A DNA stretch of 64,000 nt from Sinomonas mesophila (GTDB lineage Bacteria > Actinomycetota > Actinomycetes > Actinomycetales > Micrococcaceae). Shown piece after piece: positions 36,341-55,631 of the stretch. Position numbers and translations under genes: made by a program. A model generated the notes under the pieces. That model did not search any database, was not told the origin of the DNA, and worked only from the letters and a program-made list of their open reading frames with translations. Within the stretch, counting starts at the first letter, position 1. Each line of letters starts with the position of its first letter. The stretch spans positions 248,001 to 312,000 of the forward strand of contig NZ_KV908322.1 in assembly GCF_001999765.1 (NCBI RefSeq), in the 5' to 3' direction.

Positions 36341-36419
36341 TGAACACAGGAGAACTAGGGCTGCGGACCCCACCTTCGCCTCCTGCCATCTACACCCCTT
36401 GGATCAGGATCAATCCCAA

Positions 36420-36473
36420 GTCGTCCTACATCGCGAGGAAGATGTAGACAACTTCCAGACATCTGGCTACAGT
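36420..36473 (+). promoter_or_regulatory. ABC operon promoter with extended GntR-type operator
   Basis: AAGTCGTCCTACATC (36420-36434) faces GATGTAGACAACTT (36441-36454) as an inverted repeat. The right arm contains TAGACA (36445-36450), which with a 17-base spacer and TACAGT (36468-36473) forms the promoter; start near 36480. Confidence 0.72.
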
Positions 36474-36626
36474 GATATCGAGCACACGATGTTGCAGGGA
36501 TCACACCCGATAGGGACCCAGCCGCTTGTGCCAGCACCAAACAAGTCGCCCGGCTGCGGCCAGGGCACGCCATCCCTGCGGACCGGTCTCAGGACCAAGC
36601 GCGTCCGCTACGCGAAGGAACGAAGA

Positions 36627-37418: not shown

Positions 37419-37425
37419 GGCGGCC

Positions 37426-38735: not shown

Positions 38736-38797
38736 AGCAAACCGCCCCTCCACCTCTCGGGGGCAACCCGCCCCACCTCCACCGTTAAGGATCAACC

Positions 38798-39664: not shown

Positions 39665-39685
39665 CGCTGGCGTCGCACTGCACTC

Positions 39686-39718
39686 GGGCGGCGTCGGATG
39701 TCTCATCCGACGCCGCCC
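39686..39718 (+). terminator. Terminator of the ABC operon
   Basis: A 15-bp perfect stem (39686-39700 with 39704-39718) and 3-base loop lies 21 bases after the binding-protein stop. Confidence 0.8.
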
Positions 39719-39777
39719 TTGCGCTGTCCTCGGTGCCAGACGGTGGCGCAACTCGTACCAGTCCTGAGAGGTTGCAC

Positions 39778-40548
39778 ATGCTTGGACCCATCAGTGTCCG
39801 CCGGCCCCCACGTCCGAGCGCTACAGCCCGCGCGGTCGAATCGCTCCGGCTTCTGCTGGCGGAGAGGTCATGGGGCACCGGGGACAAGCTGCCGTCCGAG
39901 CCCGCGCTCGCCACACAGATCGGGGTGAGCCGCGTGAGCGTTCGGGCGGCACTCGCGATACTCGAGAGCGAGGGATTGGTCACCAGGCGACGCGGCTCGG
40001 GGACCTACCTCACCTCCGTTCGCCCGATCGTGAACAGTCTCCATCTCAACACCGGCTCCAGTCAGCTGCTCAGGTCCCGTGGGCGTGTTCCCGGCATCTC
40101 GGAGATGTCCTGGCGTGAGGTGGGGGCAGACGCTGAAGTAGCGGTCAGCCTCGGACTTGAGCTGGGTACCCCAGTGATCGACCTCTATCGTGTGCGGACC
40201 TCGGATGGAACGCCGGTGACGGTCGAACACGGCTATTTCGCCGCCTCACTGCTGCCTGAGCAGATGATTGACGTGGGACCGTCCCTCTACGACTTCCTGT
40301 CCACAGCGTGCGGAGTCGACGTGGTGTTCGGCATCGCGACCTTGGAACCGGCTCCCGTGGGCGAAGAGCTCTCTGGGATCTTCGGGGTCGGCAGTGAGGA
40401 GCTGTGCCTGGTGATGAAGCAGGTGGACTACGACGCGGCCGAGCGTAGTGTCGCTTACTGCGTGGAACGCCACTTGGCGGACGCATTCGACTTCCAGCTA
40501 GTGCGCCAGCCGCCGGTCCACCCGGCTTCCCGCCCAGGGCGCCCATAG
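39778..40548 (+). CDS. GntR/HutC-family regulator with UTRA domain (second copy)
   Basis: This 256-residue paralogue of the regulator at 34083 has the same winged helix (GDKLPSEPALATQIGVSRVSVRAALAILESEGLVTRRRGSGTYL) and UTRA domain (TPVIDLYRVRTSDGTPVTVEHGYFAASLLP). ATG 39778 follows GAGAGG. Recognition-helix residues SRVSVRAAL are identical in both, so they may bind overlapping operators while sensing different ligands. Its own upstream region lacks AGTTGTCC but has an imperfect GCAACTC/GAGGTTGC inverted repeat (39749-39774 region). It probably arose by duplication within the island. Confidence 0.88.
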   Translation: MLGPISVRRPPRPSATARAVESLRLLLAERSWGTGDKLPSEPALATQIGVSRVSVRAALAILESEGLVTRRRGSGTYLTSVRPIVNSLHLNTGSSQLLRSRGRVPGISEMSWREVGADAEVAVSLGLELGTPVIDLYRVRTSDGTPVTVEHGYFAASLLPEQMIDVGPSLYDFLSTACGVDVVFGIATLEPAPVGEELSGIFGVGSEELCLVMKQVDYDAAERSVAYCVERHLADAFDFQLVRQPPVHPASRPGRP

Positions 40549-41102: not shown

Positions 41103-42269
41103 CTACCGGATGCCGATCTCGGCATAGGGCGCGTTGTCGCCAACACGCTGGTACCCGAACGGCGTCAGATCGATCGTGAGGTACTTGCCGGTCGTGATGT
41201 GCTCCGCGATGGCCCGCCCGACGCCGAGCGCGTGCATGAACCCGTGGCCGGAGAAGCCTGCCGCGACATAGAAGTTGTCGTACCGCCCCTGCCAGTTGCC
41301 CACGATGGCATTGCCGTCGAAGCGGTTCTGGTCGTAGAGGCCGGTCCAGGTGCGCTGCTCACGGAAGTCCGTGGCGCCGGAGATGCGGTGTGCCAGGGCC
41401 GGCTCGACCACCTTCGCATAGTACTCGGGGTCGATCGTGAACTCTTCGCCGCCTGGGTGGTCGAAGTCCACGAGGCCCACCGAGACGCCCCCGAGGTGGG
41501 CATGGATGGCCAGGCCGGCGATGTCCTTGATGAAGGGGAGGTGGTCGAGCGGCTTCGACGCGACGGCGTAGTGCTCGTGCCGGCGCATCGGCTCGACGGG
41601 GAGGTCCATGCCCAGCTGCGCCGCCAGGCCAGGGGCCCAGGTCCCTGCGGTGTTCACGAAGGCATCGGCCGTCAGGACCGGCCCGGACGCGAGGCGGACC
41701 CCGGTGACCTTGGGCGAATCGGCGATGAGCCCCTGGACCTCGTCCTCGAGGACCGTGACGCCGGCGTGCCGCGCGCGGTTCTGCACGCCCTCGAAGAAGG
41801 CCTTCGGATCGAGCCAGCCGTCACGGGAGGAGAGCACCGCGCCGCGAAGGTCGTCGGTGCGGATCTCCGGATACCTCCTGCCGAGCTCAGCCGGCTCGAT
41901 CCACTCGGCGTCCACCCCGCACGCGCGCTGCGTCTCGTAGTTCCGGGCGAGGATGTCGACGTCCTTCTCGCCGGCGATGAACAGGTAGCCGTTCGAGCGC
42001 CACTTCAGGTCCGGCGTCGAGACGCCCGGGACGGCAGCCCAGTCCCCCCAGTTCTCGACGATGTCGAGCGTGTACTGCGAGAGCGCGATGTTCTCCGGGC
42101 GGGTGAAGAGCTGGCGGATCCCGCCGGTCCCCTTGCCCGTGGCCGCCTTCGCGTAGGTCGGATCCTTCTCGACGATGACGACCTCGGCGTGTGGGTCGGT
42201 GAGCTTCATCTGCAGGGCGGTGGCGAATCCGACGATTCCGCCGCCGATGACAACAACGTCTGCCTTCAT
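41103..42269 (-). CDS. FAD-dependent DadA/sarcosine-oxidase-type amino acid oxidase
   Basis: This 388-residue DAO-superfamily flavoprotein has VVVIGGGIVGFATALQMK at the N-terminus, KGTGGIRQLF (isoalloxazine contact region), and the C-terminal YVAAGFSGHGFMHALGVGRAIAEHI motif typical of sarcosine oxidase and related N-methyl or D-amino acid dehydrogenases. ATG 42269 follows AGGAGTGG. It is 30 bases downstream of the GMC dehydrogenase gene, so both probably come from the PucR-type promoter at 44.0 kb. A substrate with a secondary or N-methylated amine is likely. Confidence 0.88.
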   Translation of the reverse strand: MKADVVVIGGGIVGFATALQMKLTDPHAEVVIVEKDPTYAKAATGKGTGGIRQLFTRPENIALSQYTLDIVENWGDWAAVPGVSTPDLKWRSNGYLFIAGEKDVDILARNYETQRACGVDAEWIEPAELGRRYPEIRTDDLRGAVLSSRDGWLDPKAFFEGVQNRARHAGVTVLEDEVQGLIADSPKVTGVRLASGPVLTADAFVNTAGTWAPGLAAQLGMDLPVEPMRRHEHYAVASKPLDHLPFIKDIAGLAIHAHLGGVSVGLVDFDHPGGEEFTIDPEYYAKVVEPALAHRISGATDFREQRTWTGLYDQNRFDGNAIVGNWQGRYDNFYVAAGFSGHGFMHALGVGRAIAEHITTGKYLTIDLTPFGYQRVGDNAPYAEIGIR

Positions 42270-42299
42270 GGGTCGTTCCACTCCTGTATTCACGTGCGA

Positions 42300-43952
42300 T
42301 CAGATCTTCCGGGTGCTCTGGCCTGACGAGCGGTAGAAACCGGCCGTCGAGGGCTCGAGGGCGGGCACGCCGCGGACCTGGTCTGCGATCTTCTCGGCCA
42401 TCATCATCACGGGGGCGTTGATGTTGCCCGTGATGACCTTCGGCATGATCGAGGCGTCCGCGATCCGCAGGCCGCCGACGGCGTAGACCCGGCCCTGCTG
42501 GTCGACGACGGCCTCGTCGTCGAGGCCCATGCGGCACGTGCCCGAGGCGTGGTACGAGGTCCCGACACTCTTGCGCACGAAGGCCTCGATCTCCGCGTCC
42601 GTCTGCGCCCCGGCTCCGGGGCTGAGCTCGGTGGGGGAGAACCGCTGCCAGGCGCGCTGCCGCACGAGCCTGCGGGCCAGCTTGACGCCATCGACCAGAT
42701 CCTTCAGGTCCTGTCGCTGCTCGAGGTGGTTGAAGACAACAGAGGGGTTCTCGGCCGGGTCGGCCGACTTCAGCCTGACGGCACCGCGGCTCAGCGGCCG
42801 TGCGAGGTCCATCCAGAACTGGAAGCCGGGCACCGGGACGACCTTGCCGCGGTGCAGGCGGCGGGTGATCGGCAGGAACTCGTACTGCATGTTGCCGTAC
42901 TCGACATCGTCGCGGGTCTTGAGGAAGGCGCCGGTCTCGAAGAAGTTGGTGGTGCCGAGCCCCTTGCGCGCCAGGAACCATTCGGCCCCGAGCCGGCCGC
43001 GGCCGAGGATACCCAGCTCGCTCGTGAGCGAGTGCTCGTGCGCCGTGCCGAATTGGATGTCGACGCCGGGGTGGTTCTGCAGGTTGCGCCCGACGCCGGC
43101 GACGTCGGCGATGAGGGGGATGCCGTGCTGGCGCAGCTCCTCAGCCGGTCCGATGCCAGAGAGCATGAGCAGCTTCGGGGTGTTGACCGCCCCAGCGCAC
43201 AGGATCACCTCCCGCTCGCTCGAGATCGTCCGGGAGGTCCCGTCTTCGTCGACCGCGATCCCGCGGACCATGCCGTCGCTGACGACGAGGCCCTTGACCA
43301 TCGTGCGCAGCATGACCGTCAGGTTCGGACGGCCCGCCGCGGGGCGGAGATAGGCCCTAGAGGTGCTCCAGCGCACGCCGTCGTCGATGAACGACTGGGC
43401 GATATGCAGGCCCTCCTGGCGGTAGGCGTTGTGGTCCGGCGTCACCTCGAAGCCGGCCTGCTCGCCGCCGCGCAGGAACGCGTCGTAAAACTGGTGGGCG
43501 GCACGTGCCCGGGTGATACGGACTGGGCCGTCCCCCCCGCGCCACTCGTTGGCGCCCTCAGAGAAGCTCTCCATCTTCCGGAAGTAGGGGAGGACGTTCG
43601 CGTAGGACCACTGGTCGAGGCCGTCGGCGGCCCAGCCCTCGTAGTCGAGCGGATTGCCGCGATTGAAGATCATCGCGTTGATCGAGGATGAGCCGCCGAG
43701 CAGCTTGCCGGACTTCTCGTCGATGGTCTTGCCGTGCGCATGGGGCTCGGGACCGGACTGCAGGCCCCACTGGATGCGCTTGTTCTGATAGATGAACGGA
43801 AGGGCGGCCGGCATCGCGAGAATCGGATTCCGGTCGCTGCCCCCGGCCTCCACGAGGAGGACCCTCAGGGACGGGTCCTCGGAGAGGCGGGACGCCACAA
43901 TGCATCCGGCAGTACCTGCTCCGACCACGATGTAGTCGTACGAATCAGCCAT
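42300..43952 (-). CDS. GMC-family oxidoreductase (choline dehydrogenase-like)
   Basis: This 550-residue flavoprotein has the FAD motif VVGAGTAGCIVASRL, GMC signature 1 around GGSSSINAMIFNRG, signature 2 GAVNTPKLLMLSGIGP and the catalytic His in SYHASGTCRMG followed by GNINAPVMMMAEKIADQV. It oxidises an alcohol to an aldehyde. In quaternary-amine pathways such enzymes act on choline-like alcohols. ATG follows AAGGAG, 27 bases after the predicted transcription start. First gene of a two-gene operon with the DadA-like oxidase. Confidence 0.9.
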   Translation of the reverse strand: MADSYDYIVVGAGTAGCIVASRLSEDPSLRVLLVEAGGSDRNPILAMPAALPFIYQNKRIQWGLQSGPEPHAHGKTIDEKSGKLLGGSSSINAMIFNRGNPLDYEGWAADGLDQWSYANVLPYFRKMESFSEGANEWRGGDGPVRITRARAAHQFYDAFLRGGEQAGFEVTPDHNAYRQEGLHIAQSFIDDGVRWSTSRAYLRPAAGRPNLTVMLRTMVKGLVVSDGMVRGIAVDEDGTSRTISSEREVILCAGAVNTPKLLMLSGIGPAEELRQHGIPLIADVAGVGRNLQNHPGVDIQFGTAHEHSLTSELGILGRGRLGAEWFLARKGLGTTNFFETGAFLKTRDDVEYGNMQYEFLPITRRLHRGKVVPVPGFQFWMDLARPLSRGAVRLKSADPAENPSVVFNHLEQRQDLKDLVDGVKLARRLVRQRAWQRFSPTELSPGAGAQTDAEIEAFVRKSVGTSYHASGTCRMGLDDEAVVDQQGRVYAVGGLRIADASIMPKVITGNINAPVMMMAEKIADQVRGVPALEPSTAGFYRSSGQSTRKI

Positions 43953-43985: not shown

Positions 43986-44061
43986 ATCGTACGGGCGTGA
44001 TCTAGCCGACCGCTTCGGAGAATGGAACGAAGCCGCAGCCCGTTTTTCGACAGGAGTCGAA
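43986..44061 (-). promoter_or_regulatory. PucR-type promoter A: TTCGACAGGAGTCGAA box and TACGAT -10
   Basis: The dyad TTCGACAGGAGTCGAA (44046-44061) is centred at 44053.5. On the minus strand TACGAT lies at 43991-43986, 62.5 bases from the dyad centre, in the context CCGTACGATCGAGC. The -35 position (AGCGGT) is non-consensus, as expected for an activator-dependent promoter. It reads toward the GMC gene. Confidence 0.75.
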
Positions 44062-44091
44062 GGGGCAGGAACCGCGGCTCAGCAGCAGAAG

Positions 44092-45123
44092 TCAGGCCTC
44101 CAGAGCCCGCCGGTACGCGTCGAGCCACAGCGCCAGCTGGAGCGGCGTGCGCGTCGCGCCGACCCGGAGGTCGACGCCGGTCAGCTCGGCGATGCGGTCG
44201 AGCCGGTAGTACAGCGTGGTGCGATGGATGTGCAGCTCGTCGGCGGCGGCGGTGACGTCGCCGCCGTAGTCGAGGAAGGTGCGGGCGGTGGCCAGGAGTT
44301 CGTCGCGCTGCTGGGACCGGAGGACCTCGACCGCGGGGTGCAGGTCGGCGGGGCCGAGGGACGCCGGAGCGTCGACGACGAGCCGCCAGGCGCCCAGACT
44401 GTCCCACGAGACTGGGTCGAGGCGGGCACCGGCCGCGACGGCCGTGAGCGTGGCCCTGGCCCTCGCGACGGCGGTCGAGAGGGCGACGAGAGGCACGGGC
44501 GAGCCGCTCGTCGCCGTCCTCCGCCGATGGGTCACCACGGGGTAGGCGTACAGGCCGCCGGGCAGCGGCCACGCTCCCGTGCGCACCGCGGCATCGACCT
44601 GGACTTCGGCATCGTGCGGCAGCTGTTCCTGGCGGGCAAGCTCCCGCGCGGCCTCGGCGTCCGGGCCCTCGAGGAGGGCGGCGATGAGCTCGTTGCGGCG
44701 ACGCCGGACATCCTCGGCCGAGCCGTGCCGTGTGGCCAGGACGGAGGCGGCGAGGTCCGCACACTCGATGAGCGGCTCGAGGTCCTCCTCTCCGACGATG
44801 TGCTCGGGGTCCAGAACCCAGAGGTAGCCCATCAGGCGTCCCTCGCGGCGGGCCGGGACGCACCAGCGGGCCCACATGCCCCGCTCGGGCATCTCGGGCG
44901 TGCGAACGGGGCCGACCGCCCTGTCCAGGTTGAACTCCCGCACGACTTCCGCGGCCTTGGGGTCCACATGCCGGTCGAGAATCGTGGACATGCGCGTCTG
45001 GTCCACCGACCCCCTCGTGCTCCACCAGACGGGCCGCTGGTCGCGGTCCTCGACGAGCACGGACAGGTTCAGGGCGAGGGACAGCCGATCCACCGCTGCT
45101 TGCACGTCGCCGCTGTCCGCCAT
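44092..45123 (-). CDS. PucR-family transcriptional regulator
   Basis: This 343-residue protein has an N-terminal GAF-like sensory part (LVEDRDQRPVWWSTRGS... GYLWVLDPEHIVGEEDLEPLIECA) and a C-terminal PucR helix-turn-helix (DVTAAADELHIHRTTLYYRLDRIAELTGVDLRV, about residues 282-315). ATG 45123 follows GGAGAAGAG. PucR proteins are usually activators of purine, amino-acid or amine catabolism. It is divergent from the P5C dehydrogenase gene and sits among four promoters sharing one dyad box, for which it is the only suitable adjacent regulator. Confidence 0.9.
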   Translation of the reverse strand: MADSGDVQAAVDRLSLALNLSVLVEDRDQRPVWWSTRGSVDQTRMSTILDRHVDPKAAEVVREFNLDRAVGPVRTPEMPERGMWARWCVPARREGRLMGYLWVLDPEHIVGEEDLEPLIECADLAASVLATRHGSAEDVRRRRNELIAALLEGPDAEAARELARQEQLPHDAEVQVDAAVRTGAWPLPGGLYAYPVVTHRRRTATSGSPVPLVALSTAVARARATLTAVAAGARLDPVSWDSLGAWRLVVDAPASLGPADLHPAVEVLRSQQRDELLATARTFLDYGGDVTAAADELHIHRTTLYYRLDRIAELTGVDLRVGATRTPLQLALWLDAYRRALEA

Positions 45124-45269
45124 TGATCTCTTCTCCACTCCAGTCAGCAACCCATCCTACAGATGCCGAAAACGGCTGAAGGCTCTTCGACATCCAGACG
45201 CAGGCCGGGGCCAGTCCGCGAACCTAACCTGCTGGGGACCTCTATTCCCGACATGCTGGAGAACGCCTC

Positions 45270-46895
45270 GTGACCGCACTTGCCGCATCCATCGCCGCGC
45301 AGGACTTCGACCTGGTGCCCAGCCGGTCGTACCGTGCCGGCTCCCCTGAGAGGGCCCGGCTTGAAGCCGCACTCACGGAGGTCCGGTCGGCCGCCTACGA
45401 CCTCCCGCTCGTCATCGGGGGCCGTGAGGTCCGCACGGGGAACACGTTCCCCATCCTTGCACCACACGAGCGCGCAACGGCGCTCGGAAGCGTCCACACC
45501 GGCTCGGCGCCGGAGGTCGAGGCTGCCGTCGCTGCAGCACGCGAAGCCGGGAGGACGTGGGGCCGGCTGCCCGCCGATGAGCGAGCTGCCCCGTTCCTCA
45601 GGGCTGCTGACATGCTGAGCGAGGGGCCATGGCGTGACCGGCTCGTGGCCGCGACCATGGTCGAGCTGTCCAAGACAGCCGCCCAGGCCGACGGCGACGT
45701 CGCCGAGGCTGCCGACTTCATCCGCGCCAACGTAGCCAACATGGCGGCCCTTGAGAGTGTGCAGCCCGTATCGCCTGCGGGCTTCGTCAACCACGTCGAC
45801 TATCGCCCCCTCGAGGGCTTCGTCCTCGCCATCTCGCCGTTCAACTACACTTCCATGAACAATCTCGCCTTCGGCCCCGCGCTGCTCGGCAACTCTGTGC
45901 TCTGGAAGCCCGCGTCCACCGCGGCCCTCGTCGCGAACCTCTCGCTGCAGCTGCTGCGCGAGGCCGGCCTGCCCGACGGCGTCATCAGCCTCCTCAACGG
46001 GGAGGGCCGCGAGATCGGCGATCTGGTGGTCCGCCATCCCGAGCTCGCGGCGATCCACTTCACCGGATCGACTCGCACCTTCCGCTCCATCTGGGACACC
46101 GTGGGCCGGAACGTCTCCCGCTACCGCGACTTCCCCCGCATCGTCGGCGAGACTGGCGGCAAGGGCTTCGTAGCTGTCCACCCGTCGGCCGACGTCGAGG
46201 CCGTCGCGGTCGCTTGCGTCCGGGGCGCCTATGAGTACCAGGGCCAGAAGTGCGCCGCCGTCACCCGCGTCTACGCGCCGCGGAGCCTCTGGCCGGCGCT
46301 GAAGGAGCGGCTCATCGAGCAGACTGAGGCACTCGCCGTCGGCGACCCGACCATGCCCGGAACACAGTTGGGCGCCGTCATCAGCGGCCGCCAGCACGCA
46401 GGGCACGTGGACGCCCTCGCCCAGGCGCGGGAGGAGAACCTGGTCCTCGCCGGCGGTGACGCCTGGGACACCCCCGGCTGGTTCGTCCAGCCCACGCTGC
46501 TCGAGGTCTCCGACCCCAGGTCGCGGTTCATGACCGAGGAGTTCTTCGGGCCGATCATGGCCGTCTACGTCTACGAGGACTCCGCGTGGGAGGAGACCCT
46601 CCGGCTCGTCGATGGCACCTCCGAGTACGGCCTCACGGGCGCGGTCTTCGCCGCTGATGAGAGTGCGATCGCGAAAGCCGACCGGGTCCTGCGCTACACG
46701 GCCGGCAACTACTACATCAACGACAAGCCGACCGGCGCTGCCGTCGGCCAGCAGCCCTTCGGCGGCGCACGCGCCTCGGGCACGAACGACAAGGCGGGCA
46801 CCGTGTGGAACACGATCCGCTTCACGAGCCCCCGGACCACCAAGTGGACCCAGACGCCCGACTCCGGCTCCCGCATCGCGGCCCTCGACGGCTGA
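45270..46895 (+). CDS. L-glutamate gamma-semialdehyde (P5C) dehydrogenase
   Basis: This 541-residue aldehyde dehydrogenase is of PruA/ALDH4 type: FNYTSMNNLAFGPALLGNSVLWKPAS (NAD site), FTGSTRTFRSIW, general-base Glu in GETGGKG and nucleophile Cys in EYQGQKCAAVTRVY. It converts glutamate semialdehyde, in equilibrium with P5C, to glutamate using NAD+. GTG 45270 follows CTGGAG. It lacks the PutA proline dehydrogenase fusion, and no proline dehydrogenase gene is near. It is monocistronic with a strong terminator. It presumably takes the end product of the imino-acid pathway into central metabolism. Confidence 0.92.
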   Translation: MTALAASIAAQDFDLVPSRSYRAGSPERARLEAALTEVRSAAYDLPLVIGGREVRTGNTFPILAPHERATALGSVHTGSAPEVEAAVAAAREAGRTWGRLPADERAAPFLRAADMLSEGPWRDRLVAATMVELSKTAAQADGDVAEAADFIRANVANMAALESVQPVSPAGFVNHVDYRPLEGFVLAISPFNYTSMNNLAFGPALLGNSVLWKPASTAALVANLSLQLLREAGLPDGVISLLNGEGREIGDLVVRHPELAAIHFTGSTRTFRSIWDTVGRNVSRYRDFPRIVGETGGKGFVAVHPSADVEAVAVACVRGAYEYQGQKCAAVTRVYAPRSLWPALKERLIEQTEALAVGDPTMPGTQLGAVISGRQHAGHVDALAQAREENLVLAGGDAWDTPGWFVQPTLLEVSDPRSRFMTEEFFGPIMAVYVYEDSAWEETLRLVDGTSEYGLTGAVFAADESAIAKADRVLRYTAGNYYINDKPTGAAVGQQPFGGARASGTNDKAGTVWNTIRFTSPRTTKWTQTPDSGSRIAALDG

Positions 46896-46905
46896 ACCCC
46901 CTGCG

Positions 46906-46943
46906 GGCGAGCCCCGGTCATCGGCTGATGACCGGGGCTCGCC
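46906..46943. terminator. Bidirectional terminator between P5C dehydrogenase and proC
   Basis: A 16-bp perfect stem (46906-46921 with 46928-46943) with CGGCTG loop sits between converging genes and serves both. Confidence 0.85.
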
Positions 46944-46988
46944 TGTCTGGCTCCTGCCTCCGGGCTGCTTCTTCCCTCGGGCGAAGTG

Positions 46989-47813
46989 CTACCGCCGGAA
47001 GCGGCCCGTCATCGCGGAGACGAAGGCCGCGCGCACCGCGCGCTCATCGAGTTCGCCCATGGCCGCGACAGTGTTGCCGCCGGGGCTCGTGACGCGTTCG
47101 CGGAGCACCACCGGGTGCTCACCGGATTCCCTGAGCAGGGCGCCGGCGCCCACGATGGTCTGCACGACGACGCTGCGTGCCATGTCCCGGCGAAGGCCCA
47201 TTGCTACGCCGGCCTCGATCATGGCGTCGACGACGTAGAAGAAGTGCGCCGGCCCGGTGCCGCTGAGGGCCCCGACCGCCCGCTGCTGCTCCTCGGGCAC
47301 CACGATGACCTCGCCGGAGAGGGAGAAGAAGTCGCGCACCTTCTGCAGCTGCTCCTCCGAGCAGTTGAGACCCGGCGTGAGGACCGCGAGGCCCTCGCCC
47401 ACCTGCGCCGGCGTGTTGGGCATGACTCGGACGACGGCGCTCCCCTGACGCAGGTGCGCCTCGAGCTCCTGCGTGGTCACCCGAGCGGCCAGCGAGACGA
47501 CGACGGCGGTGCTGGGCAGCGCGTCGGCGATCTCGTCCAGCACACCGGCCACCTGCTCTGGCTCGACGCCCACGACGACGAGCTCCGCCGTCGTGACCGC
47601 CTCGCGGTTGTCCGTGCCGCCCGTGACCCCGTACTGAGTGGCGATGCGCTCCACGTGGTGCCGGCGGCGGGCGGTCGCGTGGACCCGCTGCGGGTCGAGG
47701 CCGCCCTTGAGGGCGCCGGCCATGATGGCCTCGCCCATGTTCCCGATGCCGATGAACGCGGTTGCTGTCGTTGACGTTGTCGTTGCCACGCCCTGGTCGC
47801 GGGTGATGGTCAT
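46989..47813 (-). CDS. proC: Pyrroline-5-carboxylate reductase
   Basis: This 274-residue protein has the Rossmann motif FIGIGNMGEAIMAGALKGG (residues 20-38), RVMPNTPAQVGEG and the C-terminal signature VTSPGGNTVAAM. It interconverts proline and P5C with NAD(P)H. A Thr-rich N-terminal extension of about 17 residues precedes the core. ATG 47813 follows GGAGGAGAC. It shares the PucR-type promoter design, so this is probably a catabolic copy, not the biosynthetic proC of the genome. Confidence 0.92.
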   Translation of the reverse strand: MTITRDQGVATTTSTTATAFIGIGNMGEAIMAGALKGGLDPQRVHATARRRHHVERIATQYGVTGGTDNREAVTTAELVVVGVEPEQVAGVLDEIADALPSTAVVVSLAARVTTQELEAHLRQGSAVVRVMPNTPAQVGEGLAVLTPGLNCSEEQLQKVRDFFSLSGEVIVVPEEQQRAVGALSGTGPAHFFYVVDAMIEAGVAMGLRRDMARSVVVQTIVGAGALLRESGEHPVVLRERVTSPGGNTVAAMGELDERAVRAAFVSAMTGRFRR

Positions 47814-47863
47814 TTGTCTCCTCCTTGAGGGGTTGCCTGTGTCTCGGCCACGGCCGTGGCTCC

Positions 47864-47940
47864 ACCGTAGGGACGCCCTTCGGGGCTGGGCTCTGACCGG
47901 TTGACGTAAACCTCCGGCCGCGTTCCGACAGGAATCGGAA
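47864..47940 (-). promoter_or_regulatory. PucR-type promoter B1: TTCCGACAGGAATCGGAA box and TACGGT -10
   Basis: The perfect 18-base dyad TTCCGACAGGAATCGGAA (47923-47940) is centred at 47931.5. On the minus strand TACGGT at 47869-47864 is 62.5 bases away, in the context CCCTACGGTGGAGC. It reads toward proC; predicted leader 44 bases. Confidence 0.7.
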
Positions 47941-47977
47941 GCCCAGAGGCCGGTCCGGGGTAGGGGGAGGGGCGCAC

Positions 47978-48053
47978 TTCGATTTTTGTCGGAACTGGGG
48001 CTCAGGGTTCCTTCCTCTGGTCGAAGAGATCCCGCGGCGATCGACCCTACGAT
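47978..48053 (+). promoter_or_regulatory. PucR-type promoter B2: TTCGATTTTTGTCGGAA box and TACGAT -10
   Basis: The dyad at 47978-47994 (centre 47985.5) lies 62.5 bases before TACGAT (48048-48053), in the context CCCTACGATCGAGC. It reads toward the flavoprotein at 48119. Boxes B1 and B2 serve divergent genes from one 305-base region. Confidence 0.72.
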
Positions 48054-48118
48054 CGAGCGACAGAGCCGCAGTGACCTTCCTCACTGATACATTCCTGAAG
48101 GCAAGGAGCAGTACACCC

Positions 48119-50164
48119 ATGACGGTGGAAACCCAGAAGGACCTCGACGTGAACGTGCCGCCAAGCAAGGACGATGCTTCCGAGGTGTCCCCGCGCAGCG
48201 ACGAGAAGTTCCCACTGCTGCTGAGCCCGCTGACCATCCGCGGGAAGTCCCTGCGCAACCGCATCGTATCCACGCCCCACGCGACGGGATGGGACACCCC
48301 CGGCGGCACTCTCGTCCAGGCCGAGGTCGACTACCACGTGCGCAAGGCAGCCGGTGGCTGCGGGCTCGTCATGACCTTCGGTTCCGCGAGCGTCGATCCT
48401 GAGACGGCGGCTTCCTATGGCGCCATCGCCCTCTGGGACCCCCGCAACGAGCCGGCGCTCCGCGCCTTGGCCGACGGCGTGCACCGCCACGGCAGCTTCG
48501 TGATGTCCCAGCTCACCCACATGGGCCGCAGGGGCGATTCGCGCAAGTCCGGCATCCCGGTGCGCGGCCCGTCCGACATCCCCGAGCCCGAGCACCGCGA
48601 GGTCCCGGTGCCCCTCACCACCGCAGAGATCAAGCGGATCGTCACCCGCTTCGTCGACGTCGCGAAGCGGCTCGAGGCCTGCGGCTGGGACGGCGCCGAA
48701 ATCACCTCGTTCGGCCACCTCATCGAACAGTTCTGGGACCCGAAGATCAACAACCGCACCGACGAGTACGGCGGCTCCCTCGAGAACCGCATGCGCTTCG
48801 GCATGGAGGTCGTCGAGGCCGTCCGTGCCGCGGTGAGTGAGAACTTCATCGTCGGCTTCCGGATGACCATCGACCAGCGCTCCGGCACGGACGAGGTCGG
48901 GCTGAACCCCCGCGAGCTCGCGGAGATCGCTGTCCGCATGGCCAACACAAGCCACATCGATGTCCTGTCCCTGACCGGCGGGGCGGCCATGACCAAGCAG
49001 GCCCTCGCCAACGCGATGGGCTCCGACTTCGTTCCCGAGGTCCCCTTCGGCGAGCTTGCCGCCAGCATCCGCAGCCAGATCCAGATCCCGGTCATCCTCG
49101 CCGGGCGCATTCTCGATGGCCAGCACGCCGAGGGCGCCATCCGCGACTATGGCGTGGACCTCGTCGGCATGACCCGCGCGATGATCGCCGATCCTGATCT
49201 GGGGAACAAGCTGGCCTCGGGGCAGCGCATCCGCCCCTGCATCGGCATCAACCAGGGCTGCATCGGCCGCCTCTACAACGGGCTCCCCGTGCGCTGCTCC
49301 GTCAACCCCGCCATCCGCGAACCCCAGCTGGGGACCCTCCTCCCGGCGCCCCGCGCCAAGAACGTCATCGTCGTCGGCGCGGGAGTGTCCGGGCTCGAGG
49401 CGGCCCGGTCGGCGGCGCTCCGAGGCCACAAGGTCGTCGTCCTCGACAGGGGACCCAAGGCCGGTGGCAGGGCGAGCATCAACGCCGAGCACGGCTGGCG
49501 CCCGACCTGGCAGCGCTACCTCGACTTCCTGATCGAGGAAGCCGCGGATGCCGGCGTCGACGTGCGCTACGGCATCGAGGCCACGGCCGAGGAGATCCTC
49601 GCGCTCTCGCCCGACGAGGTCATCTTGGCCACAGGCTCGAGGCTGCGCGAGGCGCTGCTGCCCGAGGGCGCCCTGCAGGTCCACGACGCCGACGAGATCA
49701 TCGTGCAGGCGCCGGCACCCGCAGGAGCCGGGACCGCCGTCGTCATCGACGAGGAGAACGGATTCTGCGGTCCGACGGCCGCCGTCGCCCTCGCCGAGAA
49801 GGGCTGGAACGTCGTCATCGCCACCCCGCTGCAGATGGTCGCGGGCGACGTCGACGGGACCGTCCTGCCCTTCGTCCACCGCAAGCTCGAGACGGCGAAG
49901 CCGACGATCCTCGTGAACATGCGTCTCCACGCCGCCGACCACCAGAGCGTCACGGTCGAGAACGTCCTCACCAGCACCCAGACGGTGATCCCCGACGTTG
50001 GCCTCCTGGTCGTCGCGGGCCACCGTCAGGGCACCCACGCACTGGCCCAGCAGCTCGCGGCGAAGGCACCGTCGCTGTCGGTCCATCTCGTCGGCGACGC
50101 GCTCTCGCCTCGCGGCTTCGACGACGCCACCGCCGAGGGAGCCCGAATGGGGGCCGCCGTCTGA
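48119..50164 (+). CDS. Old yellow enzyme/FAD bifunctional oxidoreductase, N-methylproline demethylase-like
   Basis: This 681-residue protein has an N-terminal FMN TIM barrel (LLSPLTIRGKSLRNRIVSTPHATG...; THMGRRGDSR; LIEQFWDPKINNRTDEYGG), an Fe-S region with only three cysteines (C-x6-C-x11-C) and a C-terminal FAD/NAD(P) part (VIVVGAGVSGLEAARSAALRG). It belongs to the dimethylglycine/trimethylamine dehydrogenase, dienoyl-CoA reductase and StcD/HpbB group. The latter removes N-methyl from N-methylproline. Context with proC and P5C dehydrogenase makes an N-methyl imino acid plausible. ATG 48119 follows AAGGAG. Confidence 0.8.
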   Translation: MTVETQKDLDVNVPPSKDDASEVSPRSDEKFPLLLSPLTIRGKSLRNRIVSTPHATGWDTPGGTLVQAEVDYHVRKAAGGCGLVMTFGSASVDPETAASYGAIALWDPRNEPALRALADGVHRHGSFVMSQLTHMGRRGDSRKSGIPVRGPSDIPEPEHREVPVPLTTAEIKRIVTRFVDVAKRLEACGWDGAEITSFGHLIEQFWDPKINNRTDEYGGSLENRMRFGMEVVEAVRAAVSENFIVGFRMTIDQRSGTDEVGLNPRELAEIAVRMANTSHIDVLSLTGGAAMTKQALANAMGSDFVPEVPFGELAASIRSQIQIPVILAGRILDGQHAEGAIRDYGVDLVGMTRAMIADPDLGNKLASGQRIRPCIGINQGCIGRLYNGLPVRCSVNPAIREPQLGTLLPAPRAKNVIVVGAGVSGLEAARSAALRGHKVVVLDRGPKAGGRASINAEHGWRPTWQRYLDFLIEEAADAGVDVRYGIEATAEEILALSPDEVILATGSRLREALLPEGALQVHDADEIIVQAPAPAGAGTAVVIDEENGFCGPTAAVALAEKGWNVVIATPLQMVAGDVDGTVLPFVHRKLETAKPTILVNMRLHAADHQSVTVENVLTSTQTVIPDVGLLVVAGHRQGTHALAQQLAAKAPSLSVHLVGDALSPRGFDDATAEGARMGAAV

Positions 50165-50279
50165 CCGCGGCCCCGCCCACGACTACTCCAGCACACGGCT
50201 GACCGCCCTTCCACCGGTCGCCGTCCACCGGGGCATCCGCCCCGGCCCTTGAACCATGCCTTCCGAAAGGAAATCGCAT

Positions 50280-51638
50280 ATGTCCCATGTAGTCGACGAC
50301 GCACCGCTGTCGTCCTTCCACAAGAAGCTTGCGCTGTACTCCTCAGGCGGCCCGTTCGTGGACGGGTACATCCTGAGCATCATCGGCGTCGCAATGATCC
50401 AGATCACGCCGCAATTCAACCTCTCCGCCTCGGAGCAGGGCCTTGTGGGCGCCGCTGCCCTTGTGGGCATCTTCTTCGGAGCCTTCCTCGGCGGGTGGCT
50501 CACCGACAAGTTCGGCCGGCATGTCCTCTTCACCGTGGACCTCATCGCCCTCGTGGTCTGCTCCATCGTCCAGGCGTTCGTCGCGGATGCCTTCTGGCTC
50601 ATCATCCTGCGCCTGCTCATCGGCGCCGCCGTCGGCGCGGACTACCCGATCGCGACTTCGCTCCTCGCGGAGTTCACCCCGAGCCGCTGGCGCGGCCCGC
50701 TGCTCGGGGCGTTCACGACGATGTGGTTCGTCGGCGCGGCCGTCGCGTACATCGTGGGCCAGTTCCTGCTGACCTTCGAGGACGGGTGGCGGTGGATGCT
50801 CGCGAGCTCGGCGATCCCCGCACTCATCATCGTGCTCCTGCGCATGGGGACCCCCGAGTCCCCCCGCTGGCTGGCCAAGGTGGGCCGCCATGAGGAGGCC
50901 AACGAGGTCCTCGCCAAGGTCTACGGCCCCCACGTCACCTTGGCCGATCTGCCCGAAGAGAGCGGCAAGAATGTCAGCGTCGGCGAGCTCCTCAAGTCCG
51001 GCTATGGCAAGCGGATGGCCTTCATCACCATCTTCTGGACCTGCTCCATCGTCCCGCTCTTCGCCGTCTACGCGTTCGGCCCGGCCATCCTCGAGGCGCT
51101 CAAGCTCGGCGGAGACCTCGCCCACATCGGCTCGGCCGCGATCACAGTCCTCTTCCTCGTCGGCTGCCTCGTGGCCGTGTTCCTCGTCAACCGCATGGGC
51201 CGCCGGCCACTCCTGATCCACAGCTTCCTCTGGAGCGGCCTGGCCCTCCTGGCCCTGGGTCTGTTCCCTGAGGCCAACAACTGGGTCATCATGGCGTTCT
51301 TCGCGGCCTACGCCGTCTTCATCGGCGGGACGCAGATCATGCAGTGGGTCTACCCGAACGAGCTCTTCCCGACCGAAGTGCGCGGCTCCGCCGTCGGCCT
51401 CGCCTCCTCCCTCAGCCGCATCGGCGCGGCCGTCGGAACGTACCTGGTGCCTGTAGCGCTGGTGAGCCTCGGAATCGGACCCACGATGGTGATCGCCGCC
51501 GTCGTGACCCTGCTCGGGGTCGCCGTGTCCATGGCGTGGGCGCCAGAGACGCGCGGCCTGACCCTCGGCCAGTCCGCCGCCCTGACGGCCGGGACCTCGC
51601 AGCAGCCCGAGCGGCCGCGGGAAGACGCCCTGCGCTAG
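50280..51638 (+). CDS. Major facilitator superfamily metabolite:H+ symporter
   Basis: This 452-residue transporter has 12 predicted helices, the loop 2-3 motif GGWLTDKFGRHVLF, RGPLLGAFTTMW and the sugar-porter-like PETRG near the C-terminus with WVYPNELFPTEVRGSAVG. ATG 50280 follows GAAAGGAA. It lies 115 bases after the N-methylproline demethylase-like gene and 40 bases before the reductase gene, so the three may form one operon. It likely imports the aromatic, betaine or imino-acid substrate. Confidence 0.88.
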   Translation: MSHVVDDAPLSSFHKKLALYSSGGPFVDGYILSIIGVAMIQITPQFNLSASEQGLVGAAALVGIFFGAFLGGWLTDKFGRHVLFTVDLIALVVCSIVQAFVADAFWLIILRLLIGAAVGADYPIATSLLAEFTPSRWRGPLLGAFTTMWFVGAAVAYIVGQFLLTFEDGWRWMLASSAIPALIIVLLRMGTPESPRWLAKVGRHEEANEVLAKVYGPHVTLADLPEESGKNVSVGELLKSGYGKRMAFITIFWTCSIVPLFAVYAFGPAILEALKLGGDLAHIGSAAITVLFLVGCLVAVFLVNRMGRRPLLIHSFLWSGLALLALGLFPEANNWVIMAFFAAYAVFIGGTQIMQWVYPNELFPTEVRGSAVGLASSLSRIGAAVGTYLVPVALVSLGIGPTMVIAAVVTLLGVAVSMAWAPETRGLTLGQSAALTAGTSQQPERPREDALR

Positions 51639-51678
51639 ATTGCAGGCCATAGAGGAGACCTCGAGCAAGGAGAGCGCC

Positions 51679-52701
51679 GTGGCCGCGAGGACGCCGAGGG
51701 CGAAGGGTGTCGACGAGCCACGGGTGCGCGTGGAGGCCGGAGAACTGTCGGAGCTGTGCAGGGCTGCTGTGCTGAGGCACGGCGGCAGCCCGGCGATGGC
51801 CGCCTCGCTGGCCGACGCGATCGTGCACGCCGAACTGCGGGGAAAGAGTTCAGTAGGGGTCGGACACCTCTTCGACTACCTCGACTCCCTTGTGGAAGGC
51901 CGGATCGACGGCGGCGCCCAGTCGGTCGCGACGTGGCCAACCCCGTCCCTGGCGCTCTCCGACGCCCGGGACTCCATCCCGCACCTTGCCTTCGACGGGG
52001 TCTTCGAGGAACTCGTCCAGTCCGCCCGTGCCAACGGGGTCTGTGTTCTCAGCGTCAGGAACGCCTACACGTGCGGCGAGGTGGGCTACTTCGTCGATCG
52101 CCTCGCCCGCAGCGGCCTCGTGGCGTTGGCCGTGGCCAATGCCACGGCGCTCATGTCCGTCGGAGGATCGAAGAGGCCCGTCCTCGGAACGAATCCCCTC
52201 GCCTTTGCGGTGCCGGGCGAGGACGGGCCCGCCCTCCTCGTGGATCAGGCCTCCAGCCACACGGCGTTCGTCAGCATCAGGCAGGCCGCGGAGGCCGGTG
52301 CGCCCATTCCCCGAGACTGGGCGCTCGACGGCGAAGGGGAGCCGACGTCGGACGCGCGGGAAGCCCTGGCGGGGGCCCTGCTGCCCTTCGGGGGATACAA
52401 AGGCGGCAACATCGCCCTCATGGTCGAGCTGCTCTCAGCCCTCTCGGGAGCGAGCTGGTCCGTCGACTCGGGGCCCTTCGACTCGGGCTCAAGAAGCCCG
52501 GCCGTCGGCATGTTCGTCCTGTGCCTCGACCCGGCGCGCTTCGACCCCGCCTACGTCTCGAGGGTGAGCGAGCACTTGGACCGGCTGGAGACCGAGCACG
52601 GCGCCCGGCTGCCAGGGCGGGGCAAGGCCGAAGCGGCGAGAGCGCGGGGCTGCGAGATCCCCGCGGACATCCTGGCCAAGCTCCGGAAGCTCGCTGCCTG
52701 A
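51679..52701 (+). CDS. Malate/lactate dehydrogenase-family (DpkA-like) imine reductase
   Basis: This 340-residue Ldh_2-fold protein has ELRGKSSVGVGHLFDYLDSL near the start, VLGTNPLAFAVPGEDGPALLVDQASSHTAF in the middle and LPFGGYKGGNIALMVELLSALSGASW near the end. The family includes ureidoglycolate and malate dehydrogenases and, relevant here, delta1-piperideine/pyrroline-2-carboxylate reductase, which makes pipecolate or proline from the cyclic imine. GTG 51679 follows AAGGAG; TTG 51640 is in frame. It completes a set that could channel a D- or 3-hydroxyproline-like imine to proline. Confidence 0.82.
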   Translation: MAARTPRAKGVDEPRVRVEAGELSELCRAAVLRHGGSPAMAASLADAIVHAELRGKSSVGVGHLFDYLDSLVEGRIDGGAQSVATWPTPSLALSDARDSIPHLAFDGVFEELVQSARANGVCVLSVRNAYTCGEVGYFVDRLARSGLVALAVANATALMSVGGSKRPVLGTNPLAFAVPGEDGPALLVDQASSHTAFVSIRQAAEAGAPIPRDWALDGEGEPTSDAREALAGALLPFGGYKGGNIALMVELLSALSGASWSVDSGPFDSGSRSPAVGMFVLCLDPARFDPAYVSRVSEHLDRLETEHGARLPGRGKAEAARARGCEIPADILAKLRKLAA

Positions 52702-53054
52702 CCAGGCCCAGGGGGAGCGCTGGCTGCTCGAGCCCGCCTCGATCAGTCACGTGGCATGGCCTTCTCCCCAGAGTGAAGCGACCGAGTGCTGGAACAGCGC
52801 GGCCATGCGAAAGCGCCGGGCAGGCCAGCAGCCCCGCCTCCCGGGTAGGCGGACTCGTCAGGCGATGCCTCCTCACGCCGGCCCGCCACTGCAGATCTCA
52901 TGCCATCGGTTCGGGATCTGAGGCGGGAGCATCTGGCGAGGCAGGCAGGCTGCCTCATTGCCAGGGGGAGACCCGAGCGACGGTGACTGCGGCGATGCTC
53001 CTATTTGGTCGACTTCGCAGGACAGGCCCAGCCGATGTGGTCGCTGAAAGCAGA
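52702..53054. other. Intergenic stretch without a gene
   Basis: No reading frame here looks like protein and no ribosome-binding site is followed by a plausible start. It separates the plus-strand transporter/reductase unit from the minus-strand amine oxidase and may hold the 3' end of the former transcript. Confidence 0.5.
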
Positions 53055-53084
53055 AGTGCCCCCGGCCGGCTGGCCGGGGGCACT
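53055..53084 (-). terminator. Terminator of second amine oxidase gene
   Basis: AGTGCCCCCGGCC (53055-53067) pairs with 53072-53084 as a 13-bp stem, followed on the minus strand by TCTGCTTTC, 14 bases after the stop codon. Confidence 0.8.
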
Positions 53085-53098
53085 CGTCCGCGTGGGGT

Positions 53099-54445
53099 CT
53101 ACCTGCGTTGCAATGAATCCGGGACCGACTGCCGGACGAGTTCCGCCACCCGGTGAGCCTCTGCATAGGCCCCGTGGGAGCCCGCCGTGGCGGAGGTGTA
53201 GTCCCCGGCGAAGTGCACTCGTCCCACCGGGCGCTGCAGCTCCGGCAGGACCTGGGCTCGCTCGGGTGTGAGAAGTGAGAAGCAATGCTCCCAGGACTGG
53301 CCGTGCACTCCGAGGATGTTTCCGCGCAGGGCGGGAGCGACCTTCAGGAAGTCCTCCACCCACTCGTGTATCAGCGCAGGATCATCGGAGAAGCCCGGCA
53401 CGTGGCCTGCAGTGTTTCCATAGCAGACGAAGCGCACGATGCCCGGGGGAGTGCCAGGAGCGGCCACGCCGGGCAGCGGGTTGATGATGGCGTCGAACCG
53501 AGTGCCCACCGTGGTGAGGAAGGACCATTGCGCAACCTCTGGGCACTGGTTCGCGTCGGCGACGATGTTGAGGGTGGTGCTGCCGGGAGTCTTGACGCGG
53601 GCCAGGGCCCGGGACTTCCAGTCGGGCAGCCCGGGGCACAGCTGCGCGACCAGCGGCGACGGGACAGCCATCACGACCTGGCGACTGCTCAGGGTGAGGC
53701 TGCCTGTCGGAGTCGTGGCATGGATGCGGTAGAGGTCAGCCTCTGAGTCAAAACGCACTTCAGTGACGCGTGTGCCCAGCTGGACTGTGTGCTCGGGCAG
53801 CCTGCGGACCATGGCCTGAGGAATGGCCTGCATCCCGTCCACGAGGTAGAGACGGTTGTTCTTCTCCCGCGCCAGATAGCTGGCAAAGTAGCGCAGGGCA
53901 TACTTGGCCGACAGCTCCTGTGGTTTCCCCACCGCGCCCCCCTTGATGGCCGCCTCGAGGATGGCCACGACCTGAGGGTCCAACCCGGTGAGCGAGTCAG
54001 CGACAGTGTGGTCCTCCAGCGAGTCAGCCGCACGGCTCAAGGCACCGTCGGCGGTGAACGAGCTGTACTCGTCCAGGACATTCGCCATGAACTCCCGCAG
54101 CTGCCGCTTTCCGCGCAACGGCAGAGGCAGACGCTCGACGAGCTCGTCGTCGTCGGTCGAGACCGAGGTGACGCCGGCGACGTGGATCCCGTAGGTGGTG
54201 GGGCGGAAGGGGATCAGCCGCAGGCCCAGTTCGGTGGCCAGCGACTCGCTCATCGTGTCCCTGTAGACGAAAAGCGCCCCGGTGTTGGCCGGCACGCCAG
54301 CGACATGGACAGTCTTCGTCCGGCCTCCAACTTCCGCGGCGGCCTCCACGACGCGCACGTCAAGCCCGGATCCGCGGAGGAAGTATGCCGTGCCGACCCC
54401 GGCCGGCCCTCCGCCCACGACGACAACGTCATGCACAGTACTCAT
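53099..54445 (-). CDS. Flavin monoamine oxidase-like FAD enzyme (second copy)
   Basis: This 448-residue paralogue of the oxidase at 34935-36263 shares its FAD motif (VVVVGGGPAGVGTAYFL), EAAAEVGGRTKTVH, the GGAVGKPQELSAKYALRYFASY region and the C-terminal VHFAGDYTSATAGSHGAYAEAHRVAE. It oxidises an amine with H2O2 release. ATG follows GGAG. It lies downstream of the binding-protein gene on the same strand, but a terminator intervenes. The amine oxidase plus binding protein pairing is repeated from the first half of the island. Confidence 0.88.
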   Translation of the reverse strand: MSTVHDVVVVGGGPAGVGTAYFLRGSGLDVRVVEAAAEVGGRTKTVHVAGVPANTGALFVYRDTMSESLATELGLRLIPFRPTTYGIHVAGVTSVSTDDDELVERLPLPLRGKRQLREFMANVLDEYSSFTADGALSRAADSLEDHTVADSLTGLDPQVVAILEAAIKGGAVGKPQELSAKYALRYFASYLAREKNNRLYLVDGMQAIPQAMVRRLPEHTVQLGTRVTEVRFDSEADLYRIHATTPTGSLTLSSRQVVMAVPSPLVAQLCPGLPDWKSRALARVKTPGSTTLNIVADANQCPEVAQWSFLTTVGTRFDAIINPLPGVAAPGTPPGIVRFVCYGNTAGHVPGFSDDPALIHEWVEDFLKVAPALRGNILGVHGQSWEHCFSLLTPERAQVLPELQRPVGRVHFAGDYTSATAGSHGAYAEAHRVAELVRQSVPDSLQRR

Positions 54446-54476
54446 CAGTCTCCTTCACAGTGATGATGCAAAAGGG

Positions 54477-54512
54477 AGGGGCAGCCTGGCTGTCAGCAAC
54501 CAGGCTGCCCCT
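54477..54512 (-). terminator. Intrinsic terminator of second binding-protein gene
   Basis: A 13-bp stem (54477-54489 with 54500-54512) with a 10-base loop is followed on the minus strand by CCCTTTTGC, 12 bases after the stop. Confidence 0.85.
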
Positions 54513-54523
54513 AGGAGGGAGCG

Positions 54524-55408
54524 CTACAGGAGATACGGCTCGCCGGTGTTGCTCGCCGACTCGTCAAGGTCATACTTCTTGAGCGTCTCGGCGATGAAGC
54601 CCTCCTCGCGGAGCTTCTTGATCTGGTCATTCAGGGCCTGGGTGAGCCCAGGGTTGCCCTTTGCCGTGGGCCAGTTCAGCTGGCCGGGCCGGGACGTGAC
54701 CGCGATGCGGGAGTCGGGCTTCAGCGGCACGATCTTGGCGCCGTCTACCGGAGCGGACTCGAACCGGTGGGTGGTGGCCGCGACACTGTCGATGACGGCA
54801 TCGAGGCGTCCGCTGGCGAGGTCCTGGAAGACGGCTTCGGGGTCCTGGTAGACGGAGAAGCTGTCGCCGAAGATCTTCTGCAGATCGTCGTTCCAGAGAT
54901 TGCCGACGACGGATCCGATCTTCTTGCCGTCGAGTTCGCTGATCGCCTGGTAACCGGCAATGGAGACGAGAGCGCCCTGGTCGAGGTAGACGGGGTCGCT
55001 GAGGGCGACGAGCTGGGAACGGGCCTGGGTGCGGTACCAGTCACCGGCCGCGAGATCAGATCTTCCCGTCTGCACCGAGGGGATGGCGGCGGCGGCGCCA
55101 CCGGCGGAGTCGACAACGAGCGTCAGGCACTCTCGCTTTGCGATCTCGGTGAGAAGTTCGCCTTCTATCCCGCCGAGGCCGCTGTCCTTGAGCATGGTGT
55201 GCGGAGGGAATTCGTAGGTGGAGACAGTCAGTTGACCCTCGTTGACGGTGCTGAACTCGTGCTCGGGAGTGCAGCTCGCCGTTCCGGAGCTCTCGGCCGA
55301 GCCGCCGCACGCCGACACCGACAGGGCCAGGGTCAAGGCGGCCCCTGCGGCGACGCTGCGGGCCAGATACTTACGGGGGACGTGGGTACTGCGAACGGAA
55401 TTGTTCAT
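54524..55408 (-). CDS. Family 3 solute-binding lipoprotein (second copy, orphan)
   Basis: This 294-residue lipoprotein has a signal peptide ending SVSAC (Cys32) and a type 2 binding-protein fold, with LTVSTYEFPPHTMLKDSGLGGIEGELLTEIA and GKKIGSVVGNLWNDDLQKIF. It is clearly related to the protein at 38798-39664, with no permease or ATPase genes beside it, so it probably docks to the importer at 36.6-38.7 kb. ATG 55408 follows GAGGAAAA; leader about 141 bases. Its promoter has the same box spacing as the proC and GMC promoters. Confidence 0.9.
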   Translation of the reverse strand: MNNSVRSTHVPRKYLARSVAAGAALTLALSVSACGGSAESSGTASCTPEHEFSTVNEGQLTVSTYEFPPHTMLKDSGLGGIEGELLTEIAKRECLTLVVDSAGGAAAAIPSVQTGRSDLAAGDWYRTQARSQLVALSDPVYLDQGALVSIAGYQAISELDGKKIGSVVGNLWNDDLQKIFGDSFSVYQDPEAVFQDLASGRLDAVIDSVAATTHRFESAPVDGAKIVPLKPDSRIAVTSRPGQLNWPTAKGNPGLTQALNDQIKKLREEGFIAETLKKYDLDESASNTGEPYLL

Positions 55409-55555
55409 GGTTTTCCTCGGTTCGAAGGATGCGAGGCAACGCCGCCTTGCACCCATAGCGTCTGGAGTTCTGTTGGAGCCGCCCTTCCCAGGCGGCCCGT
55501 GCGGGGAAGGAGCTCGAGTCGCGTTCTCTCGAACCCGAGCGTCGAGGTGTGTTCG

Positions 55556-55631
55556 ATCGTAGGGTTGCGCTCCAGTGGAGCGCTTCGACGGACTGAAGGA
55601 ACCACCCCGTGCTCCTTCGACAAAAATCGAA
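55556..55631 (-). promoter_or_regulatory. PucR-type promoter C: TTCGACAAAAATCGAA box and TACGAT -10
   Basis: The dyad TTCGACAAAAATCGAA (55616-55631) is centred at 55623.5. On the minus strand TACGAT at 55561-55556 is 62.5 bases away, in context CCCTACGATCGAAC. The -35 position (AGCGCT) is non-consensus. It reads toward the orphan binding protein. Confidence 0.75.

Follow-up and report, generated by a model that had tools for sequence, protein, structure and literature searches.

Results

Genes of the window

The window, by which we mean the whole analysed stretch of 64,000 nucleotides from Sinomonas mesophila, carries on its minus strand the gene of a PucR-type regulator (44092..45150, with an alternative ATG possible at 45123), which ends in an HTH_30 domain and is the proposed activator of this work. 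Divergent from it lies the plus-strand gene of an L-glutamate gamma-semialdehyde (P5C) dehydrogenase (45270..46895; TIGR01236, 629.2 bits versus a cut-off of 613.6), and beyond this the minus-strand gene of a pyrroline-5-carboxylate reductase (46989..47813), whose earlier designation as proC is borne out by the TIGR00112 model (234.9 bits versus a cut-off of 196.75). On the other side of the regulator gene, the gene of a GMC oxidoreductase (42300..43952, minus strand) is the first gene of what is likely a GMC-DAO operon, with a DAO-family FAD oxidoreductase gene (41103..42293, minus strand; Pfam DAO) 6 bp downstream. The preliminary description had named the former protein a GMC dehydrogenase, and indeed it matches Pfam GMC_oxred_N/C and exceeds the cut-off of the choline-dehydrogenase subfamily model NF002550 (647.9 bits versus 605); as a betA equivalog it scores 587 bits, under the cut-off of 732.

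A second run of genes, OYE-MFS-Ldh_2, occupies the plus strand. It is headed by the gene of an OYE/FadH-type flavoenzyme (48071..50164, likely start at 48120; Pfam Oxidored_FMN), followed by those of an MFS transporter (50256..51638; Pfam Sugar_tr and MFS_1) and of an Ldh_2-family dehydrogenase (51640..52701; Pfam Ldh_2). Among the matches listed (25 of 47) the OYE protein stays below every NCBIfam cut-off; the name N-methylproline demethylase-like, which it had been given at first reading, is thus presumptive. Further along, on the minus strand, lie the gene of a family-3 solute-binding protein (54524..55456), 45% identical to another at 38798-39664, and, 78 bp downstream of it, that of a flavin amine oxidase (53099..54445; Pfam Amino_oxidase). 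The latter two genes belong to an island (30156-40548 and 53099-55456) with paralogous pairs of solute-binding proteins (45% identity), of amine oxidases (50%) and of HutC-type GntR regulators (34083-34898 and 39733-40548; 67%). These genes may encode a route that leads from a proline-like or N-methylated compound to P5C.

Four promoters share a dyad at a fixed distance from the -10 hexamer

Four CGA-N6-TCG dyads, hereafter box1, are distributed over about 11 kb of this high-GC genome, on both strands, and each is centred exactly 62.5 bp upstream of the first base of a TACGRT hexamer, just as the preliminary description had it. In the GMC promoter box1 lies at 44046..44061 (minus strand, centre 44053.5) and the -10 hexamer TACGAT at 43986..43991; in the proC promoter at 47923..47940 (minus strand, centre 47931.5) with TACGGT at 47864..47869; in the OYE promoter at 47978..47994 (plus strand, centre 47985.5) with TACGAT at 48048..48053; and in the binding-protein promoter at 55616..55631 (minus strand, centre 55623.5) with TACGAT at 55556..55561. 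The sequence of box1, TTCGACANNNNTCGAA, makes a strong dyad, with 6, 6, 4 and 5 of 9 positions symmetric in the GMC, proC, OYE and binding-protein promoters, respectively.

That such phasing arose by chance is exceedingly improbable. CGA-N6-TCG is admittedly common, with 45 copies in a window of 68% GC that also holds 16 copies of TACGRT, yet of the five same-strand pairs of the two motifs between -10 and +120 bp of a dyad centre, four are spaced at 62.5 bp and one at 100.5 bp. None of 300 dinucleotide shuffles placed more than two pairs at any one spacing below 120 bp (maxima of 0, 1 and 2 pairs in 66, 232 and 2 shuffles), and the composite pattern of dyad and hexamer, with up to 3 mismatches, occurs four times in the window versus 0.02 expected. 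The earlier judgement that chance could hardly produce this arrangement is therefore upheld, and the whole-genome scan it proposed returned at the same stringency only these four sites in 4.0 Mb. When a 91-column matrix was trained on three of the promoters, the fourth ranked first of 127,820 positions in every case, training sites being excluded from the ranking.

The exact 16-mer of box1 has two more copies in the genome. The first, at 25905-25920 just past a 2OG oxygenase gene, sits at the tip of a perfect GC-rich hairpin whose arms measure 19 bp. The 110 bp to either side contain no TACGRT, but a TACAGT is found at a distance of 60.5 bp, separated by 7 bp from the start codon of a LysR gene. 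This copy, whose gapped-scan score of -0.4 is at noise level, may be a terminator or a degenerate extra site and was left out of the regulon. The other copy, on a different contig (C5), was set aside too, with neither TACGRT nor TANNNT near 62 bp. A tentative, degenerate version of the architecture precedes the P5C dehydrogenase gene (45154..45230, plus strand; box1 centre 45162.5, TAACCT at 45225) and is not significant alone, z being 4.2 by the four-promoter and 3.9 by a six-site matrix, and the gapped scan scoring it at 0.2.

A second dyad takes the place of the -35 element

With a spacer of 17 nt, the hexamers at the -35 position read AGCGGT, AGCCCA, AGAGAT and AGCGCT. None of them is TTGACA, in keeping with the preliminary description, and hence the promoters have no usable -35 element. 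What they have instead, as the ungapped alignment of the four reveals, is a common second dyad overlooked at first reading, TTC-N12-GAA(G) or box2, centred 31.5 bp upstream of the first base of the -10 hexamer, exactly 31 bp downstream of box1, and thus located where a -35 element would be. In leave-one-out matrices built from box2 alone and run over 127,820 positions, the copies of the OYE promoter (TTCCTTCCTCTGGTCGAA, 48008..48025, plus strand) and of the binding-protein promoter (TTCCTTCAGTCCGTCGAA, 55584..55601, minus strand) both ranked first, that of the GMC promoter (TTCGTTCCATTCTCCGAA, 44014..44031, minus strand) ranked third, and that of the proC promoter (47892..47909, minus strand), the weakest of the four, ranked 22nd. 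Box2 is degenerate as a palindrome, with 5, 2, 4 and 3 of 9 positions symmetric in the GMC, proC, OYE and binding-protein promoters.

A class I activator binds only upstream of the -35 element and has no site at it. Such an activator, acting from a lone dyad at -74, had been proposed for these promoters; since a second dyad, centred at about -43.5, sits at the missing -35, the operator layout is tandem rather than class I.

The position of box2 would also suit a repressor, in that a protein bound to the proximal dyad over the -35 position might block RNA polymerase. We regard repression as decidedly unlikely, for there is no usable -35 element to block, and the PucR-type proteins named in PMC7652997 are all activators except the PucR of Bacillus subtilis, which does both.

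The PucR-type protein

The product of 44092..45150 carries HTH_30 (PF13556) at its C-terminus (77 bits versus 27), which qualifies it as PucR-type. Its assignment to the PucR family in the preliminary description is thus confirmed for the DNA-binding part only: the N-terminal PucR domain (PF07905) was detected neither in the window protein (E 1e-3) nor in two relatives (E 0.1). In one of these relatives the GAF domain PF01590 is recognised (24.2 bits versus 22.4), and we call the N-terminus of the window protein GAF-like by way of this orthologue. Pfam found no GGDEF-like domain in the window protein or the two relatives; about half of the PucR-type members have one, according to PMC7652997. 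The best NCBIfam match of the protein, among the matches listed, is the AdeR equivalog NF058503, at 64.1 bits far below its cut-off of 700.

The architecture recurs beside PucR orthologues in two other genomes

A scan of the genome collection with the protein returned seven loci, of which one holds a close full-length relative, the other six matching over 35-63 residues. The close relative, 59-60% identical over its full length, is an orthologue in Streptomyces sp. CB02414, in whose neighbourhood there are homologues of the 2OG oxygenase (72%), the GMC oxidoreductase (66%), an aldehyde dehydrogenase (ALDH, 66%), the DAO (45%), the OYE (38%) and the MFS protein (38%). The ALDH promoter of this locus (StALDH) possesses box1, box2 and a TAGGGT at 62.5 bp, and the intergenic region between the MFS and 2OG genes contains box1, from which a TACAGT lies 62.5 bp away on the side of the 2OG gene (St2OG). 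Visual inspection and pattern matching had pointed to both sites before the matrix test, in which the matrix of the four window promoters ranked the ALDH promoter first and the 2OG promoter second of 75,820 positions. A second genome of the genus Streptomyces (G479) encodes an orthologue that is 49% identical over its full length, and here a promoter before a DAO-type gene ranked first of 35,820 positions with the four-promoter matrix; with the full six-site matrix it ranked second. It had been found by a six-site matrix with which a non-site window position scored higher. Its box1 is 63.5 bp from TACCGT, 1 bp farther than in the window, and the DAO-type protein is only 26% identical to the DAO of the window.

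When one bp of play was allowed, G479 scored 23.8 and StALDH 20.0 versus a maximum of 13.97 in a control of 519,620 positions from 54 loci; the top control locus had itself been chosen by the composite pattern, and the next scored 10.2. St2OG reached 11.6, with one control position higher and 0.15 expected. Taken singly, two of the three sites, St2OG and G479, do poorly in some of the tests. With the full ungapped matrix alone St2OG falls short of significance (0.58 expected by chance); ranked element by element among 75,820 positions, its box1 comes first, its box2 5,941st and its -10 941st. In view of the 0.58 expected and the higher control position, St2OG leans on box1 and the exact spacing. 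For G479, box1 in register ranks 4,067 of 35,820 and the ungapped site is expected 0.2-0.55 times by chance.

Matrix and gapped scans gave no clear site before the 2OG and P5C dehydrogenase genes of the window, and matrix scans ranked none before the GMC and DAO genes in Streptomyces, so that the target lists differ between the genomes. Since the promoters used for training and those found precede different genes, descent from a single promoter does not explain the sites. We further hold it very improbable that duplication of promoters while the cluster was assembled left these common sequences behind as relics, with no regulator involved. The island does contain paralogues (binding proteins, amine oxidases, GntR), but the sequence between the boxes differs while the boxes and their spacing are kept, the genes behind the sites are not paralogous, and in two genomes the sites turn up in front of other genes.

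Which protein, then, would bind them? Among four window regulators tested (LysR, the two GntR and PucR), PucR alone has a full-length match in both Streptomyces-genus loci. The boxes might nevertheless be operators of another regulator, such as one of the HutC-type GntR proteins, with PucR a mere bystander: both GntR genes lie within 10 kb, contrary to the earlier statement that the PucR-type gene is the only suitable adjacent regulator, and a GntR-like HTH stretch is found both at 7 kb from the PucR orthologue of CB02414 and adjoining that of G479. However, the GntR matches there span 49-65 residues only (E 4e-4 to 1e-6), whereas those of PucR are full length, and the Streptomyces PucR/pruBA promoters described below have a nearly equal geometry and a related GACA-NN-TGTC core. 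On this comparison of four window regulators we judge control by another regulator unlikely. Overall, the proposal of a PucR-tied regulon gains support from the occurrence of the operator/-10 architecture beside PucR orthologues in two other genomes, before other genes.

Distribution and origin of the cluster

With no more than 2 mismatches allowed, the composite pattern is absent from 14 genomes of the same genus, and its 19 matches in 394 other genomes of the family, one of them with a single mismatch, equal chance (20 in the reversed control). Nor do the 14 same-genus genomes contain a close PucR, the best match having an E value of 4e-12 versus 2e-230 for the protein itself; the PucR pieces in them are, among the matches listed, 28-48% identical and represent distant paralogues. 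With five first-look candidates scored per genome, among the matches listed, no further orthologue was found in 393 other genomes of the class at E <= 1e-25, and none by profile search in 395 other genomes of the phylum at E <= 1e-40; plasmids gave none at 1e-15. Of 392 genomes of the genus Streptomyces, two encode an orthologue at E <= 1e-40, one being the source of the query. A GMC protein at E <= 1e-60 is present in 9 of the 14 same-genus genomes; the best of these is 44% identical versus 66% in Streptomyces, a difference that hints at acquisition of the cluster from outside the genus. There are thus hints of horizontal acquisition for the island.

A paralogous PucR/pruBA promoter of Streptomyces

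A further PucR-type gene of the CB02414 genome is transcribed divergently from pruB-pruA; pruA passes its model's cut-off, and pruB matches best a proline-dehydrogenase model, below cut-off. The product of this PucR-type gene shares 44% identity with the window PucR across 99 residues at the C-terminal end and 27% across 153 at the N-terminal end. A pruBA-linked PucR gene exists in 39 of 41 searched genomes of the genus Streptomyces, and the PucR/pruB intergenic region holds a TCAKACANNTGTMTGA-like palindrome in all 30 returned loci (30 genomes). In 27 of them GACAGSTGTC follows exactly 33.0 bp downstream of the first palindrome, and a TANNNT (mostly TAGGTT or TAGATT) stands at 63.5 bp from the centre of that palindrome in 26 of the 27 and at 64.5 bp in the other one; the remaining three loci lack the combined pattern. 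The 27 loci are orthologous and hence stand for one conserved promoter, not 27 events. As in the window, the regulator gene is divergent from proline catabolic genes and there are two palindromes with a TANNNT at a near-equal distance, the core GACA-NN-TGTC being related to that of the window; the differences are another half-site, TCAKACANNTGTMTGA, a single promoter and a spacing 1-2 bp longer. The double palindrome is likely to be an operator of proline catabolism.

A general GACA-NN-TGTC palindrome was rejected as a marker in relatives, for it showed no enrichment (15 forward versus 14 reversed-control matches in 38 genomes), and of the 15 loci only that of the window genome itself matched three PucR-type queries. 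At this locus, on contig C6 of the S. mesophila genome, a palindrome TCAGACACTTGTCTGA (L130:4010-4030) lies between a PucR-type gene and the alanine dehydrogenase gene ald, with no TANNNT toward ald at about 50-80 bp. A second palindrome, CGACATCTGTCG at L130:7610-7635, is followed at 64.5 bp by TAGCCT and precedes a transporter gene of the D-Ser/D-Ala/Gly type.

It is conceivable, though we advance it tentatively, that the actinobacterial AdeR/PutR-like GAF-HTH_30 regulators follow a fixed grammar, with a pair of dyads set 31-33 bp apart, a TANNNT -10 hexamer at 62.5-63.5 bp from the distal member, no -35 element, and a half-site varying between paralogues. If so, regulons of this large and mostly uncharacterised family would be readable from sequence.

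Discussion

The window contains four promoters with the same two dyads in the same phase to a -10 hexamer and with no -35 element, and this layout recurs beside PucR orthologues in two further genomes. Four promoters of one layout, and a matching layout next to a related regulator gene in two other bacteria, argue for a real gene-control circuit, probably one for a proline-like nutrient. Judging from the sequence data, we take the regulon to be real, very probably with the PucR-type protein as its regulator, and we think it likely that the four promoters form one regulon which this protein activates from the two tandem dyads.

We suggest that the protein, with its GAF-like sensor and C-terminal HTH_30, would bind as dimers to both dyads, whose centres, if the -10 hexamer spans -12 to -7, would fall at about -74.5 and -43.5, three helical turns apart and on one face of the DNA, so that box2 would stand in for the missing -35. 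Upon binding a proline-like ligand the protein would recruit RNA polymerase, activating rather than repressing, and thereby switch on the presumed transcription units GMC-DAO, proC, OYE-MFS-Ldh_2 and binding protein-amine oxidase from the predicted start sites. The induced enzymes could then channel a pyrrolidine-type or N-methylated substrate towards P5C and glutamate. In such a circuit a PucR-type protein would have a regulon of several promoters, with a predicted operator, a spacing rule and candidate targets, and uncharacterised flavoenzymes and a transporter would be linked to an apparent proline-type catabolism. The near-equal geometry of the paralogous system could moreover make it easier to predict which genes other, as yet unassigned PucR-type proteins control.

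In the open-licence PMC literature we found no paper on the operator of the window or on that of Streptomyces PucR/pruBA. The nearest described systems are covered in PMC7652997. GabR of Corynebacterium glutamicum, which controls gabTDP, has a pair of inverted repeats immediately 5' of the -35 region; the bound region extends from -87 to -23 and strong binding needs both repeats. The window is alike in layout, with two dyads directly upstream of and at the -35 position of the core promoter, box2 being degenerate. Unlike GabR, which is assigned to PF07905 and termed a local regulator, the window PucR has no detected PF07905 and four promoters are involved. AdeR and PutR of B. subtilis are PucR-type activators of alanine and proline catabolism, respectively, and their operators, like the window boxes, are inverted repeats, of 24 and 17 bp (cited in PMC7652997). 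Taken together, the kind of regulator and the operator layout are known, whereas the regulon and the half-site appear to be new and the spacing rule is a candidate one.
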